Positions 1 through 8,658 of a stretch of 41,480 nucleotides of DNA are shown piece by piece. The translations under genes and the position numbers were made by a program. Source of the stretch: an uncultured Nocardioidaceae bacterium (GTDB lineage Bacteria; Actinomycetota; Actinomycetes; Propionibacteriales; Nocardioidaceae); NCBI GenBank assembly GCA_902805845.1, contig CADCUI010000029.1, positions 1-41,480 on the forward strand, written 5' to 3'. The first letter of the stretch is position 1, and every line of letters starts with the position of its first letter. The notes under the pieces are model-generated. The model was not told the DNA's origin and ran no database searches. It was given only the letters and a program-made list of their open reading frames with translations.

Positions 1-3113
<3,113 letters not shown>

Positions 3114-3114
<1 letters not shown>

Positions 3115-4322
3115 CAGTCGTCGCTCCCCTTCTGGGCATCCGTCATCAGGTCGCAGAAGCGGTCGAAGAGGTACGCCGCGTCGTGGGGCCCCGCTGCTGC
3201 CTCCGGGTGGTACTGCACCGAGAAGGCGCGAAGCTGCCCCTCCCCGTCACGCAGCTCCAGACCCTCCACGACGTTGTCGTTGAGACAAATATGACTCGCC
3301 TCGACCTCGCCGTACGGCGTGGGTGCCGCCCGGTCCAGCGGCACGCCGTCCGGCCACTGCACCGCGAAGCCGTGGTTGTGCGCGGTGATCTCGACCTTGC
3401 CCGTGGTGCGGTCCATCACCGGCTGGTTGAGGCCGCGGTGGCCGTACTTCAGCTTGTAGGTGCCCAGCCCGAGCGCCCGGCCGAAGAGCTGGTTGCCGAA
3501 GCAGATCCCGAAGTAGGGCAGCCCCCGGTCGAGCGACTGCTGCAGCAGCTCGACCTGGTGCGTCGTCGCGGCGGGGTCACCGGGCCCGTTGGAGAAGAAC
3601 AGGCCGTCGGGGTCGACCGCCAGCACGTCGTCGACGGAGGCGGTCGCGGGCAGCACGTGCACCTCGACCCCGCGCTCGGCCAGCATCCGGGGCGTGTTCG
3701 CCTTGATGCCGAGGTCGACCGCGGCGACCCGGTGGCGCCGCTCGCCCACCGCCGGCACGACGTAGGGCTCCGCGGTCGTCACCTCGTCGGCCAGCTCCAG
3801 CCCCGTCATCTCCGCGGACTCCCGGATCCGGGAGAGCAGGGCCTCGGGGTCGGTCTCGGTGGTGGAGATGCCCACCCGCATCGCGCCGCGCTCGCGCAGG
3901 TGCCGGGTGAGCGCCCGGGTGTCGACCCCGGCGATCCCGACGACGCCCTGCTCGCGCAGCGCGTCGTCCAGCGACCGCTGGGCCCGCCAGCTGCTCGGCA
4001 CCCGGGCCGGGTCGCGGACCACATAGCCGGCCACCCAGATCCGTCGCGACTCGGGGTCCTCGTCGTTCATCCCGGTGTTGCCGACATGAGGGCTGGTCAT
4101 GACCACGACCTGGCGGTGGTACGACGGGTCGGTCAGCGTCTCCTGGTAGCCGGACATCCCGGTGGAGAACACCGCCTCCCCGAACGTCTCCCCCTCCGCG
4201 CCGAAGGACTCGCCTCGGAAGGCCCGGCCGTCCTCCAGGACCAGCAGCGCCCCGCCTCGTCCGATCGGGCGCGCGCCATGCGCCGCGCCCGATCGGACGC
4301 CGCGGGGGTCGGCGCCGGTCAC
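3114..4322 (-). CDS. carA: Carbamoyl-phosphate synthase small (glutaminase) subunit
   Basis: Hydrolyses glutamine and channels ammonia to CarB. 402 residues, normal length. The small-chain domain (about 25-165, with [17 protein letters not shown]) is followed by a class I glutamine amidotransferase domain; the catalytic triad is Cys274 (GICFGNQ), His372 and Glu374 (QYHPEA). The start is GTG at 4322, overlapping the pyrC stop by four bases (GTGA); the stop overlaps the carB ATG by one base. Both point to translational coupling inside the pyr operon. Residues about 6-24, before the first conserved block ALLVLEDG, come from the palindromic element shared with carB, so a strong hairpin begins about 16 bases after the start codon. 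The CarA N-terminus is variable in the family, which may be why it tolerates the insert. Confidence 0.97.
4253..4306. repeat. 54-bp palindromic element, copy 2, in frame at the carA N-terminus
   Basis: The same 16-base arms as copy 1 (4258-4273 and 4284-4299, perfect inverted repeat) around a 10-base centre. Read on the minus strand, the 54 bp match the plus strand of copy 1 with only three to four substitutions, including the outer flank ending GAGGCG, so the homology goes beyond the arms and the copies lie in opposite orientation. It encodes CarA residues about 6-24 (ending ARPIGRG) without breaking the frame. Although the two copies are read on opposite strands of the element, both peptides contain RPIGR because the element is palindromic. 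Confidence 0.85.
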
Positions 4323-5611
4323 GCCGGCTTCCCCTCGTGGACGGTGGGAGTGCCACGCAGGAACGTGTGCACGACCCGTCCGGGCAGCTCGAGGCCGGTG
4401 TACGGGTTGTTGCGCGACAGGCTGGCGGACTCACCGGGCTCGACGACCCGGCTGGCCGACGGGTCGTAGAGCACGAGGTTCGCCGGCTCCCCCGCCGCGA
4501 TCGGCCGACCGTGCTCGGAGACCCGGCCGATGCGCGCCGGCGTGCGCGACATCCGGTCCGCGACGTCGGCCCAGGTGAGCAGCCCCGCGTCCACCATGGT
4601 GTGCTGCACCACCGACAGGGCGGTCTCGAGCCCGAGCATGCCGAAGGCCGCGGCCGCCCACTCGCAGTCCTTGTCCTCGTGGGGGTGCGGCGCGTGGTCG
4701 GTGGCCACGACGTCGATCGTGCCGTCGGCGAGCCCGGCGCGGACCGCCTCCACGTCGGCGTGCGTGCGCAGAGGCGGGTTGACCTTGTAGAGCGGGTCGT
4801 AGGTCGCGGCCAGGTCGTCGGTGAGCAGCAGGTGGTGCGGCGTCACCTCGGCGGTGACGTTCCAGCCCTTGCTCTTGGCCCAGCGGATGATCTCGACCGA
4901 CCCCGCGGTCGAGACGTGGCAGACGTGCAGGCGACTGCCCACGTGCGCGGTCAGCAGGCAGTCGCGGGCGATGATCGCCTCCTCGGCCACCGCCGGCCAG
5001 CCCCGCAGCCCGAGCCGCCCGGACAGCTCGCCCTCGTTCATCTGCGCGCCCTCGGTGAGCCGTGGCTCCTGGGCATGCTGCGCGACGACGCCGTCGAACG
5101 CCTTGACGTACTCCAGCGCCCGGCGCATCAGCACCGCGTCGGAGACGCACCTGCCGTCGTCGGAGAACACCCTCACCGCGGCCGCGGAGTCCGCCATGGC
5201 GCCGAGCTCGGCCAGCTGCTGGCCGGCCAGCCCGATGGTGACCGCCCCCACCGGCCGTACGTCGCAGTGGCCGGCCGACTGACCGAGCCGCCAGACCTGC
5301 TCCACCACGCCGGCGGTGTCGGCGACCGGGTCGGTGTTGGCCATCGCGTGGACGGCGGTGAAGCCCCCCAGGGCGGCGGCGCGGGTCCCGGTCTCGACGG
5401 TCTCGGCGTCCTCGCGTCCGGGTTCGCGCAGGTGGGTGTGCAGGTCCACCAGTCCGGGCAGCAGCACCAGGCCGTCCGCGTCGACGACCGTGGCGCCTTC
5501 CGCGTCGAGCCCCGCCCTGACCTCTGCGATCACGCCCCCGCGCAGGAGGACGTCGGCGGCATCGCCGCCCAGCGGCCGGGCCCCCCGGATCAGCGTCCTG
5601 TCCGTGCTCAC
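4319..5611 (-). CDS. pyrC: Dihydroorotase, class I
   Basis: Zinc amidohydrolase that cyclises carbamoyl aspartate to dihydroorotate, step 3 of UMP synthesis. 430 residues. Metal ligands and catalytic residues are visible: His58 and His60 ([10 protein letters not shown]), Asp151/152 (FSDDG), His179, His232 (VCHVST) and Asp305 (TDHAPH). The HTHLREPG motif and length fit the bacterial class I enzyme, which in some bacteria forms a complex with aspartate carbamoyltransferase. The start is GTG at 5611, overlapping the pyrB stop by four bases (GTGA); the stop overlaps the carA GTG in the same way. No catalytic residue is missing. Confidence 0.96.
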
Positions 5612-6558
5612 GCCGCGTCCCTCTCCGTCGTACCGGCCGGTTCGCTGCCCCCGAGCAGCAGGTAGAGCACCGCCATCCGCACCGCCACCCCGTTGGTGAC
5701 CTGCTCGACGATCACCGAGCGGCTCGAGTCGGCGACGTCGGCGGTGATCTCCATGCCCCGGACCATCGGCCCGGGGTGCATCACGATCGTGTGGTCCTGC
5801 AGCTGCGCCATCCTGCGGGCGTCGAGCCCGTAGCGCCGGGAGTACTCCCGCACGGTGGGGAAGTACGACGCGTTCATCCGCTCCCCCTGCACCCGCAGCA
5901 TCATCACCACGTCGGCCTTGGGCAGCACGGAGTCGACGTCGTAGGAGGTCTCGACGTTCCACCCGTCGACTCCGACAGGCAGCAGGGTCGGCGGGGCGAC
6001 GAGGGTCACCTCCGCGCCGAGCGTGCGCAGCAGCAGCGCGTTGGACCGGGCGACCCGGCTGTGGAGGACGTCGCCCACGATCGCCACCCGGCGGCCGTCG
6101 AGGGCGCCGAGGTGGCGCCACATCGTGAATGCGTCGAGCAGCGCCTGCGTCGGGTGCTCGTGGGTGCCGTCACCGGCGTTGATGACGCTGGAACCGGTCC
6201 AGCCGGCGGTGGCGAGCCGGTGCGGCGCGCCGCTGGCTGCGTGACGGACGACGATGGCGTCCGCGCCCATCGCCTCGAGGGTGAGGGCGGTGTCCTTCAG
6301 GCTCTCGCCCTTGCTGAGGCTCGAGCCCTTGGCGGCGAAGTTGATGACGTCGGCCGAGAGCCGCTTCGCGGCGGCCTCGAAGGAGATCCGCGTCCGGGTG
6401 CTGTCCTCGAAGAACAGGTTGACCACCGTGCGGCCGCGCAGCGCCGGCAGCTTCTTGATCGGCCGGTCGGCCAGGCTGCGCAGCTCCTCGGCGGTCCGCA
6501 GGACGAGCTCGGCGTCGTCGCGGCTCAGGTCGGCTGCGCTGAGCAGGTGGCGCTTCAT
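5608..6558 (-). CDS. pyrB: Aspartate carbamoyltransferase catalytic chain
   Basis: Joins carbamoyl phosphate and aspartate to N-carbamoyl aspartate. 316 residues. Carbamoyl-phosphate site STRTR at 53-57, the mobile-loop Lys83 (SLSKGES), Arg105, and HPTQ at 135-138 are all present; MHPGPMVRG near residue 275 is the conserved C-terminal loop. No pyrI regulatory chain lies next to it, as expected in actinobacteria. The ATG overlaps the pyrR stop (ATGA) and its own stop overlaps the pyrC GTG, so it sits mid-operon and should follow PyrR control of the leading gene. Confidence 0.97.
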
Positions 6559-7211
6559 CGGCCCTCCCCTGGGTGGTCGGTGACTGTGTCGGTGCCGGCG
6601 GTGGTGCCGCCGGAGATGGTGTCGGCGGCGATGGTGACCCCGTCCGCGCCGTCGATCTCCTGGAGGCGTACGACGACGGTCTCGGCCAGCGAGGTGGGCA
6701 GGTTCTTGCCCACGAAGTCGGCTCGGATCGGCAGGTCCCGGTGGCCCCGGTCGACGAGGACCGCCAGCCGCACCGTCCGCGGCCGACCCACGTCGTTCAT
6801 CGCGTCGAGCGCCGCGCGGATCGTGCGGCCCGAGTAGAGGACGTCGTCGACGAGCACGACGACCTTGTCGTCGATGCCGTCGGGCGGGATGTCGGTGGGC
6901 AGCAGGGCCCGCGCCGGCCGCATCCGGAGGTCGTCGCGGTACATCGTCACGTCGAGGGAGCCGACCGGCACCTCGACGCCCTCGACGGCGGAGATGCGCT
7001 CGGCCACCCGGCGGGCGAGCGGCACCCCGCCGGTCGGGATGCCGAGCAGCACCAGGTCGGTGGCGCCCTTGTTGCGCTCGAGGATCTCGTGGGAGATGCG
7101 CGTCAGGGCCCGGGAGATGTCCCGCGGGTCCAGCACGGTCCTGCCCTGCGGAGCCGGGATACGGCGGTCGGGCGGTGCGGTGGCGTCAGGTGGGGCAGGC
7201 TGGGTAGGCAT
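6555..7211 (-). CDS. pyrR: PyrR, pyrimidine operon RNA-binding regulator / uracil phosphoribosyltransferase homologue
   Basis: In known systems PyrR binds pyr mRNA when UMP is high and lowers expression; many homologues also have uracil phosphoribosyltransferase activity. 218 residues; the PRPP-binding motif [14 protein letters not shown] lies at 117-130. The N-terminal ~20 residues are proline-rich and not conserved. It leads the operon: the ATG at 7211 follows an AAGGAGGT Shine-Dalgarno (7222-7229) at a 10-base gap, with a PyrR-type RNA hairpin just before that. The C-terminal tail ([21 protein letters not shown] region) is extended beyond the core fold. The stop overlaps the pyrB ATG by four bases. 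Confidence 0.96.
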
Positions 7212-7221
7212 CAGCGCCCGG

Positions 7222-7250
7222 ACCTCCTTCTCCGCCTCACGGGACGGCTC
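7222..7250 (-). promoter_or_regulatory. Probable PyrR-binding RNA hairpin plus pyrR Shine-Dalgarno
   Basis: Read on the minus strand, 7250-7232 is GAGCCGUCCCGUGAGGCGG. It contains UCCCGUGAGGC, fitting the PyrR-binding loop consensus UCCNGNGAGGY known from Bacillus, and GCC/GGC can close the stem. Only two bases separate it from the AAGGAGGU Shine-Dalgarno (7229-7222). There is no terminator/antiterminator pair, so the arrangement suggests that PyrR blocks ribosome entry, as described for Mycobacterium smegmatis. The hairpin is seen in sequence; the mechanism is inferred. Confidence 0.75.
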
Positions 7251-7274
7251 GTTAAAGGATGTCGATCGCGCGTC

Positions 7275-7280
7275 ACACTA
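7275..7280 (-). promoter_or_regulatory. Possible -10 box of the pyr operon
   Basis: TAGTGT on the minus strand, which would give a leader of roughly 55-60 bases carrying the PyrR hairpin. No convincing -35 box is visible. Confidence 0.3.
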
Positions 7281-7359
7281 GCAGCCGCTGACCCCCGGCT
7301 CGCGACCCCCTGCCGGGCCGGTCGAGAGCGGTCGGACCGGGCTCCCTCACAATGGGCCG

Positions 7360-8658
7360 GTGACAGGCCTCGGGGGGAGCACGGGCAGACCCGTCGTCTA
7401 CCTGCACATCGGCGGCATGAAGACCGGCACGACGTACCTGCAGCAGCTGATGTACGCGAACCGCGCCCGGCTGCGGGACGCCGGCCTGGTGCTCCCGGGC
7501 GACTCGTGGAGCCGGCAGGTGCGCGGCGTCCAGGACGTCATGCGACTCGGTCGCCGTGACCCGCACATCCGCCGACAGGCCCGAGGGGTGTGGTCGGAGC
7601 TGTTGACCGAGGCGCTGGCCGACCCCGCCTCGGTCTCGTTGATCTCCGTGGAGTTCCTCAGCTTCGCCGGTCGGCGGGCCGTCTCCCGGGTGATGGAGAC
7701 GCTGGCAGGGGCCGACGTACGGCTCGTGCTCACGGTCCGCGACATGAGCGCGACCCTGTCGTCGCAGTGGCAGACCGTCGTGCACAACGGCGGCAAGTTC
7801 TCCTGGGAGGACTACCTCGACGACATCCCGCGGCCACAGGCCCAGCCGCTCCGGCTCCCGCGTCTCACCCGGCGGCCGCGTCACGAGTTCCACCGGACGC
7901 TCAACGTCCCCCGGATGCTCACCGTGTGGCAGCAGGTGGTGCCCGCGGGCTCGCTCCACGTGGTCACCGTGCCGCGGGCGCGGACCGAGCCCGGGGAGCT
8001 GTGGCGCCGGTTCGCCGGCGTCGTCGGCGTCGACCCGGCTGCCGCCACTCGGCCGCCGCGCGACACCAACCCGTCGCTGGGCTACGCCTCCACCGAGCTG
8101 GTACGTCAGGTCAACAGAAGGATCGGGCGGCTCCCCCAGAGCGAGTACAACTGGACGGTCAAGGAGATCGTCGCGCTCGACGTGCTCGTCACCCGGGCGG
8201 CCCAGGAGGGCCGAGCGCCGATGAGCCGCCCGGCCCACCAGCGGGCGATGGCCTGGAACCGGCTCACCCGCGAGACGATCTCGGCGTCCGGGGCGGTCCT
8301 GACCGGTGACCTGGAGGACCTGCCCGTCGACGCCGACCCCGAGGTCCTCGCCGGGATGCCGCAGCGGCCACCGGCACCAGGGTCCGAGGAGATGCTCGAG
8401 GCCGCCGAGCTGGCGGCAGAGGCGCTCCGCGCGCTCATCGACCGCCGGGTGGACAAGCTTGGCCGGGCCGGTGTGGAGGTCGAGCGCCCCACGTTCCGGA
8501 CCCCGGACGCGCTCGCCGCCGACTGGGCGTCGGCCGCTGACCCGGTCGCCACGGCGGCCGGCGACCTCGCGGCTACCGCCCGGCAGGCCGCGGTGCTGCT
8601 GCGCCGGCTCCGGGCCGAGCGCCGCAAACGGCCCGACGGGCTCAGCCGAGGTCGGTGA
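7360..8658 (+). CDS. Sulfotransferase-like protein
   Basis: 432 residues. The N-terminus has the PAPS 5'-phosphosulfate loop YLHIGGMKTGTTYLQ (14-28, Lys21), and Arg127/Ser135 in VRDMSATLSSQWQ fit the 3'-phosphate site, so a PAPS-dependent transferase is likely. The acceptor cannot be read from sequence. The C-terminal ~100 residues are Ala/Arg-rich and helical and outside the core domain. The start is GTG at 7360; CACAAT lies six bases before it and no Shine-Dalgarno is seen, so the mRNA may be leaderless. It stands alone on the plus strand, divergent from pyrR, and its last 17 bases overlap the end of the oppositely oriented reductase gene. No PAPS-synthesis gene is nearby. Confidence 0.8.
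   Translation: MTGLGGSTGRPVVYLHIGGMKTGTTYLQQLMYANRARLRDAGLVLPGDSWSRQVRGVQDVMRLGRRDPHIRRQARGVWSELLTEALADPASVSLISVEFLSFAGRRAVSRVMETLAGADVRLVLTVRDMSATLSSQWQTVVHNGGKFSWEDYLDDIPRPQAQPLRLPRLTRRPRHEFHRTLNVPRMLTVWQQVVPAGSLHVVTVPRARTEPGELWRRFAGVVGVDPAAATRPPRDTNPSLGYASTELVRQVNRRIGRLPQSEYNWTVKEIVALDVLVTRAAQEGRAPMSRPAHQRAMAWNRLTRETISASGAVLTGDLEDLPVDADPEVLAGMPQRPPAPGSEEMLEAAELAAEALRALIDRRVDKLGRAGVEVERPTFRTPDALAADWASAADPVATAAGDLAATARQAAVLLRRLRAERRKRPDGLSRGR

Follow-up and report, generated by a model that had tools for sequence, protein, structure and literature searches.

The pyrimidine operon at the beginning of this stretch of DNA, the 41,480 nucleotides from an uncultured Nocardioidaceae bacterium that we call the window, raises a simple question: does the PyrR-type hairpin in front of pyrR act on transcription, or on the translation of the whole operon? 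The original prediction favoured translation, on the grounds that the minus strand fits the PyrR loop consensus, that the hairpin lies two bases from the pyrR Shine-Dalgarno sequence (SD) with no terminator visible, and that the genes are coupled by overlaps, an arrangement likened to that of Mycobacterium smegmatis and placed here in another actinobacterial lineage. The genes concerned are as follows.

6555-7211, minus strand: pyrR, 218 amino acids, of which residues 1-23 precede the conserved domain (NF003547, 290.6 bits against a cut-off of 230; PyrR chains in PDB)
5608-6558, minus strand: pyrB, joined to pyrR by an ATGA overlap (from the sequence)
4319-5611, minus strand: pyrC, with its GTG start over the pyrB stop (GTGA; from the sequence)
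3114-4322, minus strand: carA, with its GTG start over the pyrC stop (GTGA; from the sequence)
1-3114, minus strand: carB, with its ATG at 3114-3112 over the carA stop (TGATG) and no stop before the window ends; named from its place and sequence only

The pyrR gene is intact and linked to the operon (pyrRBC-carAB), all four junctions overlap just as had been claimed, and these overlaps fit a ribosome coupling that would run from pyrR to carB. In the protein, T18, H22, R27 and the R/K residues around RGHR..PIR..GK, which we take to be the RNA contacts of Bacillus subtilis PyrR, all have identical counterparts in the window's PyrR when it is aligned to PyrR chains from PDB. As a separate observation on these genes, the genome contains 17 copies of a 42-bp palindromic repeat (CGTCCGATCGGGCGCG-N4-ATG-N3-CGCGCCCGATCGGACG, with at most 3 mismatches) and none of a reversed control pattern. 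Of the two copies in the window, one falls in carB (1825-1866, about residues 414-433, in a frame without a stop) and the other in carA as listed, towards its N-terminus (4258-4299), and the repeat thus lies within coding sequence.

Upstream of pyrR, the leader reads on the minus strand, from 7270 to 7209, CGCGATCGACATCCTTTAACGAGCCGTCCCGTGAGGCGGAGAAGGAGGTCCGGGCGCTGATG, and can be divided, together with the sequence just before it, into the following elements.

7275-7283, minus strand: extended -10-like box TGC TAGTGT, 16 nt from the element, read from the sequence
7261-7263, minus strand: GAC, 5' arm of the outer helix, pairing with GUC at 7223-7221 (minimum free energy (MFE) fold; 78.2% of alignment cells paired; both-side changes in 3 of 3 pairs)
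7255-7259, minus strand: UCCUU, 5' arm of the lower stem and complement of the SD (MFE fold; a 6-pair helix, 95.9% of whose cells are paired across 81 sequences; lower stem of RF00515)
7248-7254, minus strand: UAACGAG, 5' side of the internal loop, its AA invariant in the 81-row alignment
7232-7247, minus strand: PyrR-recognition stem-loop CCG-U-CC [CGUGA] GG-CGG, in which U 7244 is bulged and 7241-7237 form the loop (upper-stem covariation; RF00515 alignment)
7223-7229, minus strand: SD AAGGAGG, with AAGGA as 3' arm of the lower stem (sequence, fold, probability of being unpaired, alignment)

The loop motif TCCCGTGAGGC at 7244-7234 is an exact match to the consensus UCCNGNGAGGY put forward in the original prediction, and only 22 nt separate it from the pyrR ATG (7211). 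In the MFE fold, UCCUU at 7259-7255 pairs with AAGGA at 7229-7225 to form the lower stem, and the outer GAC at 7263-7261 pairs with GUC at 7223-7221; the pyrR SD is therefore an arm of the hairpin rather than its neighbour. The claim that the hairpin stops two bases short of the SD holds for the upper stem, whose last pair is at 7232; it fails for the hairpin as a whole, of which the SD-bearing lower stem and the outer helix are parts. The computed fold leaves AAGGA largely paired even without protein, with a probability of being unpaired of 0.02-0.16. Both the RF00515 alignment and our alignment A1 contain the lower stem CCUUU/AAGG and the internal AA bulge. In the upper stem, the MFE fold adopts the register GCC/GGC, and covariation instead backs CCG.U.CC/GG.CGG.

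How much of this could arise by chance? The window holds 3 exact copies of the loop motif where shuffles predict 2.35, so that we rejected the motif alone as evidence, and the same fate befell fold energy, which is ordinary against shuffles (z = +0.76, with 155 of 200 shuffled leaders at least as stable). What lifts the finding above chance is position and conservation. Nor does Rfam help: the gathering score of RF00515, the PyrR element, is reached nowhere in the window or in its own genome. At a relaxed threshold, model positions 1-115 align with 24.8 bits against a cut-off of 54, with the second half mostly omitted. The likeness to this Bacillus-type attenuator extends to the lower stem CCUU/AAGG, the AA bulge, the upper stem and the NGNGA loop, whereas the terminator half is absent from the window. 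When RF00515 was run on 20 relatives, it cleared its cut-off in 5 of the 10 leaders of attenuator type, which have the same hairpin, and in 0 of the 10 near-relative leaders, likely because the model also contains the attenuator half; this exposes a blind spot of RF00515, which scores that half too.

Conservation was assessed in 106 near-relative loci, the own one included: 26 from genomes of the window's class, and 80 named PyrR relatives, the best 80 of 575 confirmed, for which class was taken from record titles and whose species may overlap with other sampled genomes. The element stands upstream of pyrR in all 80 of these best-ranked named relatives, in 76 as an exact TCCNGNGAGGY and in the other four (L031, L060, L071 and L073) as a variant in the same place. 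The loop residues, on whose conservation the original prediction had staked itself, are thus kept among relatives. An in-frame pyrR start lies 5-17 nt past AAGG in 106/106 loci by a frame-based count; an over-strict sequence filter, since replaced, had given 62/106, and another rule gives 77/80 for the named loci. The closest named PyrR relatives, again within the best 80 of 575, are from Nocardioides, and this, with a PyrR tree, bears out the placement outside the mycobacteria.

A covariance model of the element, R1, made from the named relatives, finds one strong site in the window's own genome, at 67.7 bits; the runner-up (C6:31836, 17.3 bits, E 0.0125) is a GTGAGGCGCA stretch in which no CCUUU arm is apparent, and was treated as chance. 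Across 296 genomes drawn from the phylum, R1 matches at E <= 0.01 in at least 221, a lower bound since the model misses divergent elements (a pattern search recovers 5 of 6 loci that lack a listed match), and PyrR is found in 277. Both are present in all 26 genomes of the window's class within that draw.

Covariation in relatives' leaders, the check proposed with the original prediction, is seen in the pairs of the upper stem. Run unguided on the MAFFT alignment A1 (81 rows), RNAalifold returns the lower and upper stems, 3 of their 9 pairs showing compensatory changes, and pairs U 7244, elsewhere drawn as bulged; a second alignment, A2, was left unused, its CCTTTA block being out of register. 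The structure as drawn has 90.0% of its cells paired against 86.1% in shuffled alignments, and 29 cells changed on both sides against 14.9, with 0 of 500 shuffles as high in either measure; the count of further pair types does not exceed shuffles (228/500). When the partner is slid by +3 as a control, 30 cells are changed on both sides, yet only 55.6% of cells are paired. In a wider set of 106 near-relative and 136 other leaders, 230 of 242 were parsed by a pattern that itself requires the NGNGA loop; here upper-stem pairs 1, 2 and 3 are standard in 230, 228 and 225 of the 230, pair 4 in only 141. Pairs 2 and 3 show several pair types, pair 2 being C-G, G-C, A-U, U-A or G-U in 228/230. The lower stem is nearly invariant and so gives no support from covariation; SD function and PyrR recognition would each produce such conservation.

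No intrinsic terminator was found at 6900-7400, nor within 130 nt in any of the 106 near-relative loci (2/530 in shuffled sequence), in keeping with the earlier remark that none was visible. On the promoter side, a consensus sigma-70 scan of 6900-7400 returned no promoter; a TANNNT ending 12-23 nt before the element is present in 88/105 near-relative loci against 5.3 in shuffles, most commonly (49) at 15-16 nt, the distance at which the window's -10-like box stands. From this box, the message probably starts at about 7266-7268, a few bases before the hairpin. Beside the pyr promoter lies a divergent gene (7360-8658, plus strand) that matches nothing in NCBIfam or Pfam at E 0.001; GGMKTGTT near the N-terminus of its product looks like what we take to be a sulfotransferase P-loop.

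Taken comparatively, with the SD inside the hairpin serving pyrR in 106/106 loci, a terminator in 0/106 and a -10-like box just upstream, these observations support the earlier preference for translational over transcriptional control, and make it very probable that PyrR-UMP represses translation initiation by hiding the pyrR SD within the hairpin. The pyrRBC-carAB message would open with this hairpin, whose lower stem holds the ribosome-binding site of pyrR. With UMP in good supply, PyrR-UMP would bind the upper stem and the NGNGA loop and lock the whole hairpin, the 30S subunit would be barred from AAGGAGG, and pyrR would go untranslated; as each downstream gene overlaps its predecessor, translation would drop along the operon as well. 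When UMP is low, PyrR would depart and the tail of 16S rRNA would compete with the CCUUU arm for the SD. Given that AAGGA is computed to be mostly paired even without PyrR, the protein may further reduce an initiation that is weak from the outset, instead of serving as an on/off clamp. PyrR-dependent translational repression at the pyr leader of M. smegmatis was reportedly described by Fields and Switzer in 2007, where a PyrR-binding sequence is said to cover the first pyr ribosome-binding site without an antiterminator or terminator. The same holds in the window, where the hairpin overlaps the first pyr ribosome-binding site and no terminator follows; the differences are that the window's lineage is Nocardioides-like by its PyrR, and that regulation here is predicted from sequence. 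The element would then be another case of a known type of PyrR switch.

Which other explanations deserve consideration? The one that survives best is a variant of this reading and does not exclude it: PyrR would block translation of pyrR, and the effect on pyrB-carAB would come mainly from Rho-dependent polarity rather than from coupling. Polarity through Rho on untranslated messages is general, and the four overlapping junctions fit it as well as they fit coupling; against it, a transcriptional fusion to the M. smegmatis leader was reportedly unregulated, and we regard Rho as the main route with some doubt, as a minority possibility. A translational damper independent of PyrR, in which the self-complementary SD alone keeps initiation low, would account for the predicted pairing of AAGGA without protein; it is nonetheless very unlikely, since it leaves unexplained the exact PyrR loop motif in 76/80 named relatives, the covariation of the upper stem, and the presence of the same hairpin before pyrR genes with very different downstream layouts. 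Transcription attenuation of the Bacillus type, with the hairpin as an anti-antiterminator ahead of an intrinsic terminator, is how the hairpin could well be used in other classes of the phylum, where it does precede terminators (77 of 112 loci, below) and RF00515 passes in 5/10 attenuator-type loci searched, but for the window we rejected it as highly improbable and largely refuted by the sequence, there being no terminator at 6900-7400 or in the 106 near-relative loci and a mere 22 nt from loop motif to start codon.

The layout behind our preferred reading for the window, with the pyrR SD inside the hairpin, is one of several arrangements found when the phylum is sampled more widely. From outside the class we hand-picked 141 pyrR loci: 55 by element match, spread over families; 6 (L172-L177) without a listed element; and 80 in approximate order of E-value among the PyrR matches listed, skipping loci already in the set, those near contig ends and some others. 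The element is recovered by pattern in 136 of the 141 and missing in L155, L172, L226, L255 and L256; in L172 a divergent element is visible by eye. By rule, the 136 comprise 18 direct loci like the window, 112 distal ones, in which 23-288 nt separate AAGG from a start that was itself set by rule, and 6 without an assignable ATG, GTG or TTG start (L122, L135, L151, L159, L250 and L253); this division errs in places, as L147 is counted distal yet has an in-frame ATG 8 nt past AAGG. A terminator follows within 130 nt in 77/112 distal loci (shuffled 15/560), and in 1/18 direct ones (shuffled 0/90). Three further loci hold no pyrR (L145, L163 and L169). Two of these, L145 and L163 of family f40, have their strongest PyrR element at the 5' end of a carA-like gene, with pyrR on another contig, and the element may therefore regulate carAB separately there; two other f40 genomes (L212, L213) have loose pattern matches near pyrR that were not parsed as a PyrR loop.

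What does the AAGG arm serve when pyrR begins so far away? In 84/112 distal loci a start codon lies 4-16 nt past AAGG, in frame +1 relative to pyrR in 55, frame 0 in 16 and frame +2 in 13, against 856, 750 and 902 (+1, 0, +2) for pseudo-anchors farther down the same leaders. In 41 of the 112, the first stop of this leader ORF overlaps the pyrR start (+1 or -2; ATGA, GTGA or TGATG type), where the pseudo-anchor control, run on the 107 usable loci, which include all 41, averages 6.4 (sd 2.0; no more than 14 in any of 5000 draws); such overlapping ORFs occur in at least one locus of 14/35 families. The frame bias is weaker when one locus is taken per family (median 16/30, p = 0.019). Past AAGG, the frequency of ATG per position is 5.1% for offsets 8-11 and 4.0% for 12-15, compared with 0.7-1.6% over 16-47; its frequency of 4.7% at offsets 0-3 is unexplained by a leader-ORF model. 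The openness of the leader frames shows no clear bias (frames 0, 1 and 2 open in 55, 61 and 48 of 112 distal loci), which argues against a simple coding-sequence case, and the claim of a leader ORF is therefore built on where the start lies, which frame it opens and where the stop falls, together with the pseudo-anchor control. By the finder used, 19 of the 41 overlapping leaders have a terminator and 22 have none; in 17 of the 19, the ORF is already under way ahead of the terminator hairpin and continues past its base. The leader ORFs of family f16 (L113, L114 and L121) begin alike, with VRSLS, and it is possible that the leader peptide itself is conserved there. In the window, the conserved domain of PyrR is preceded by 23 proline-rich residues (7143-7211); as speculation, this N-terminus could be the remnant of a fused leader ORF.

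We lean towards the view, drawn from these sequence patterns, that the AAGG arm of the PyrR hairpin is a ribosome site with three uses in one phylum: within terminator-bearing attenuators; as the SD of a short leader ORF that ends over the start of pyrR, accompanied in some loci by a terminator that a ribosome on the leader would keep from closing; and, in the window's own case, as the SD of pyrR. Where the second use comes without a terminator, in 22 loci, it would be a PyrR switch by reinitiation, and could plausibly be an intermediate that links attenuation to direct occlusion. A comparable arrangement is said to exist in the pyr leader of Thermus ZO5, for which Van de Casteele in 1997 reportedly proposed a model in which PyrR controls a leader ORF whose translation stops a terminator from closing; this resembles the leader-ORF type of the other classes, whereas the window has neither leader ORF nor terminator. 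In the accessible parts of the literature, mostly outside subscription journals (PMC3766115, PMC2965389, PMC4347634, PMC4342826, PMC9140532, PMC10986495, PMC12369341, PMC13328217, PMC10672894), we found no description of a PyrR-controlled leader ORF in Actinomycetota, of its breadth, or of its terminator-free coupled form. One of these sources counts 211 pyrR sites and covers two actinobacterial groups (PMC3766115), and some actinobacterial sites may have been annotated earlier.

Has the direct form a single origin? In a quick tree of 103 PyrR proteins, with L121 set as coupled by hand, the 46 near-relative proteins included (of 106 loci) are all direct and are set apart from the rest by a supported branch (SH-aLRT 100); the tree has long branches at L156 and L148. 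Direct against not direct requires 8 changes on this tree, of which at least 3 are forced by starred branches, so that the direct form has probably changed hands more than once; the tree is unrooted and therefore gives no direction to these changes.

To conclude, the comparison would extend direct occlusion of the pyrR ribosome-binding site, a mechanism known to us from a single species, M. smegmatis, to all 106 near-relative loci examined. The PyrR recognition stem already ends in an SD, and with the leader-ORF forms of the sister classes at hand, the change from attenuator to translational switch, or the reverse, becomes one that can be put to the test.
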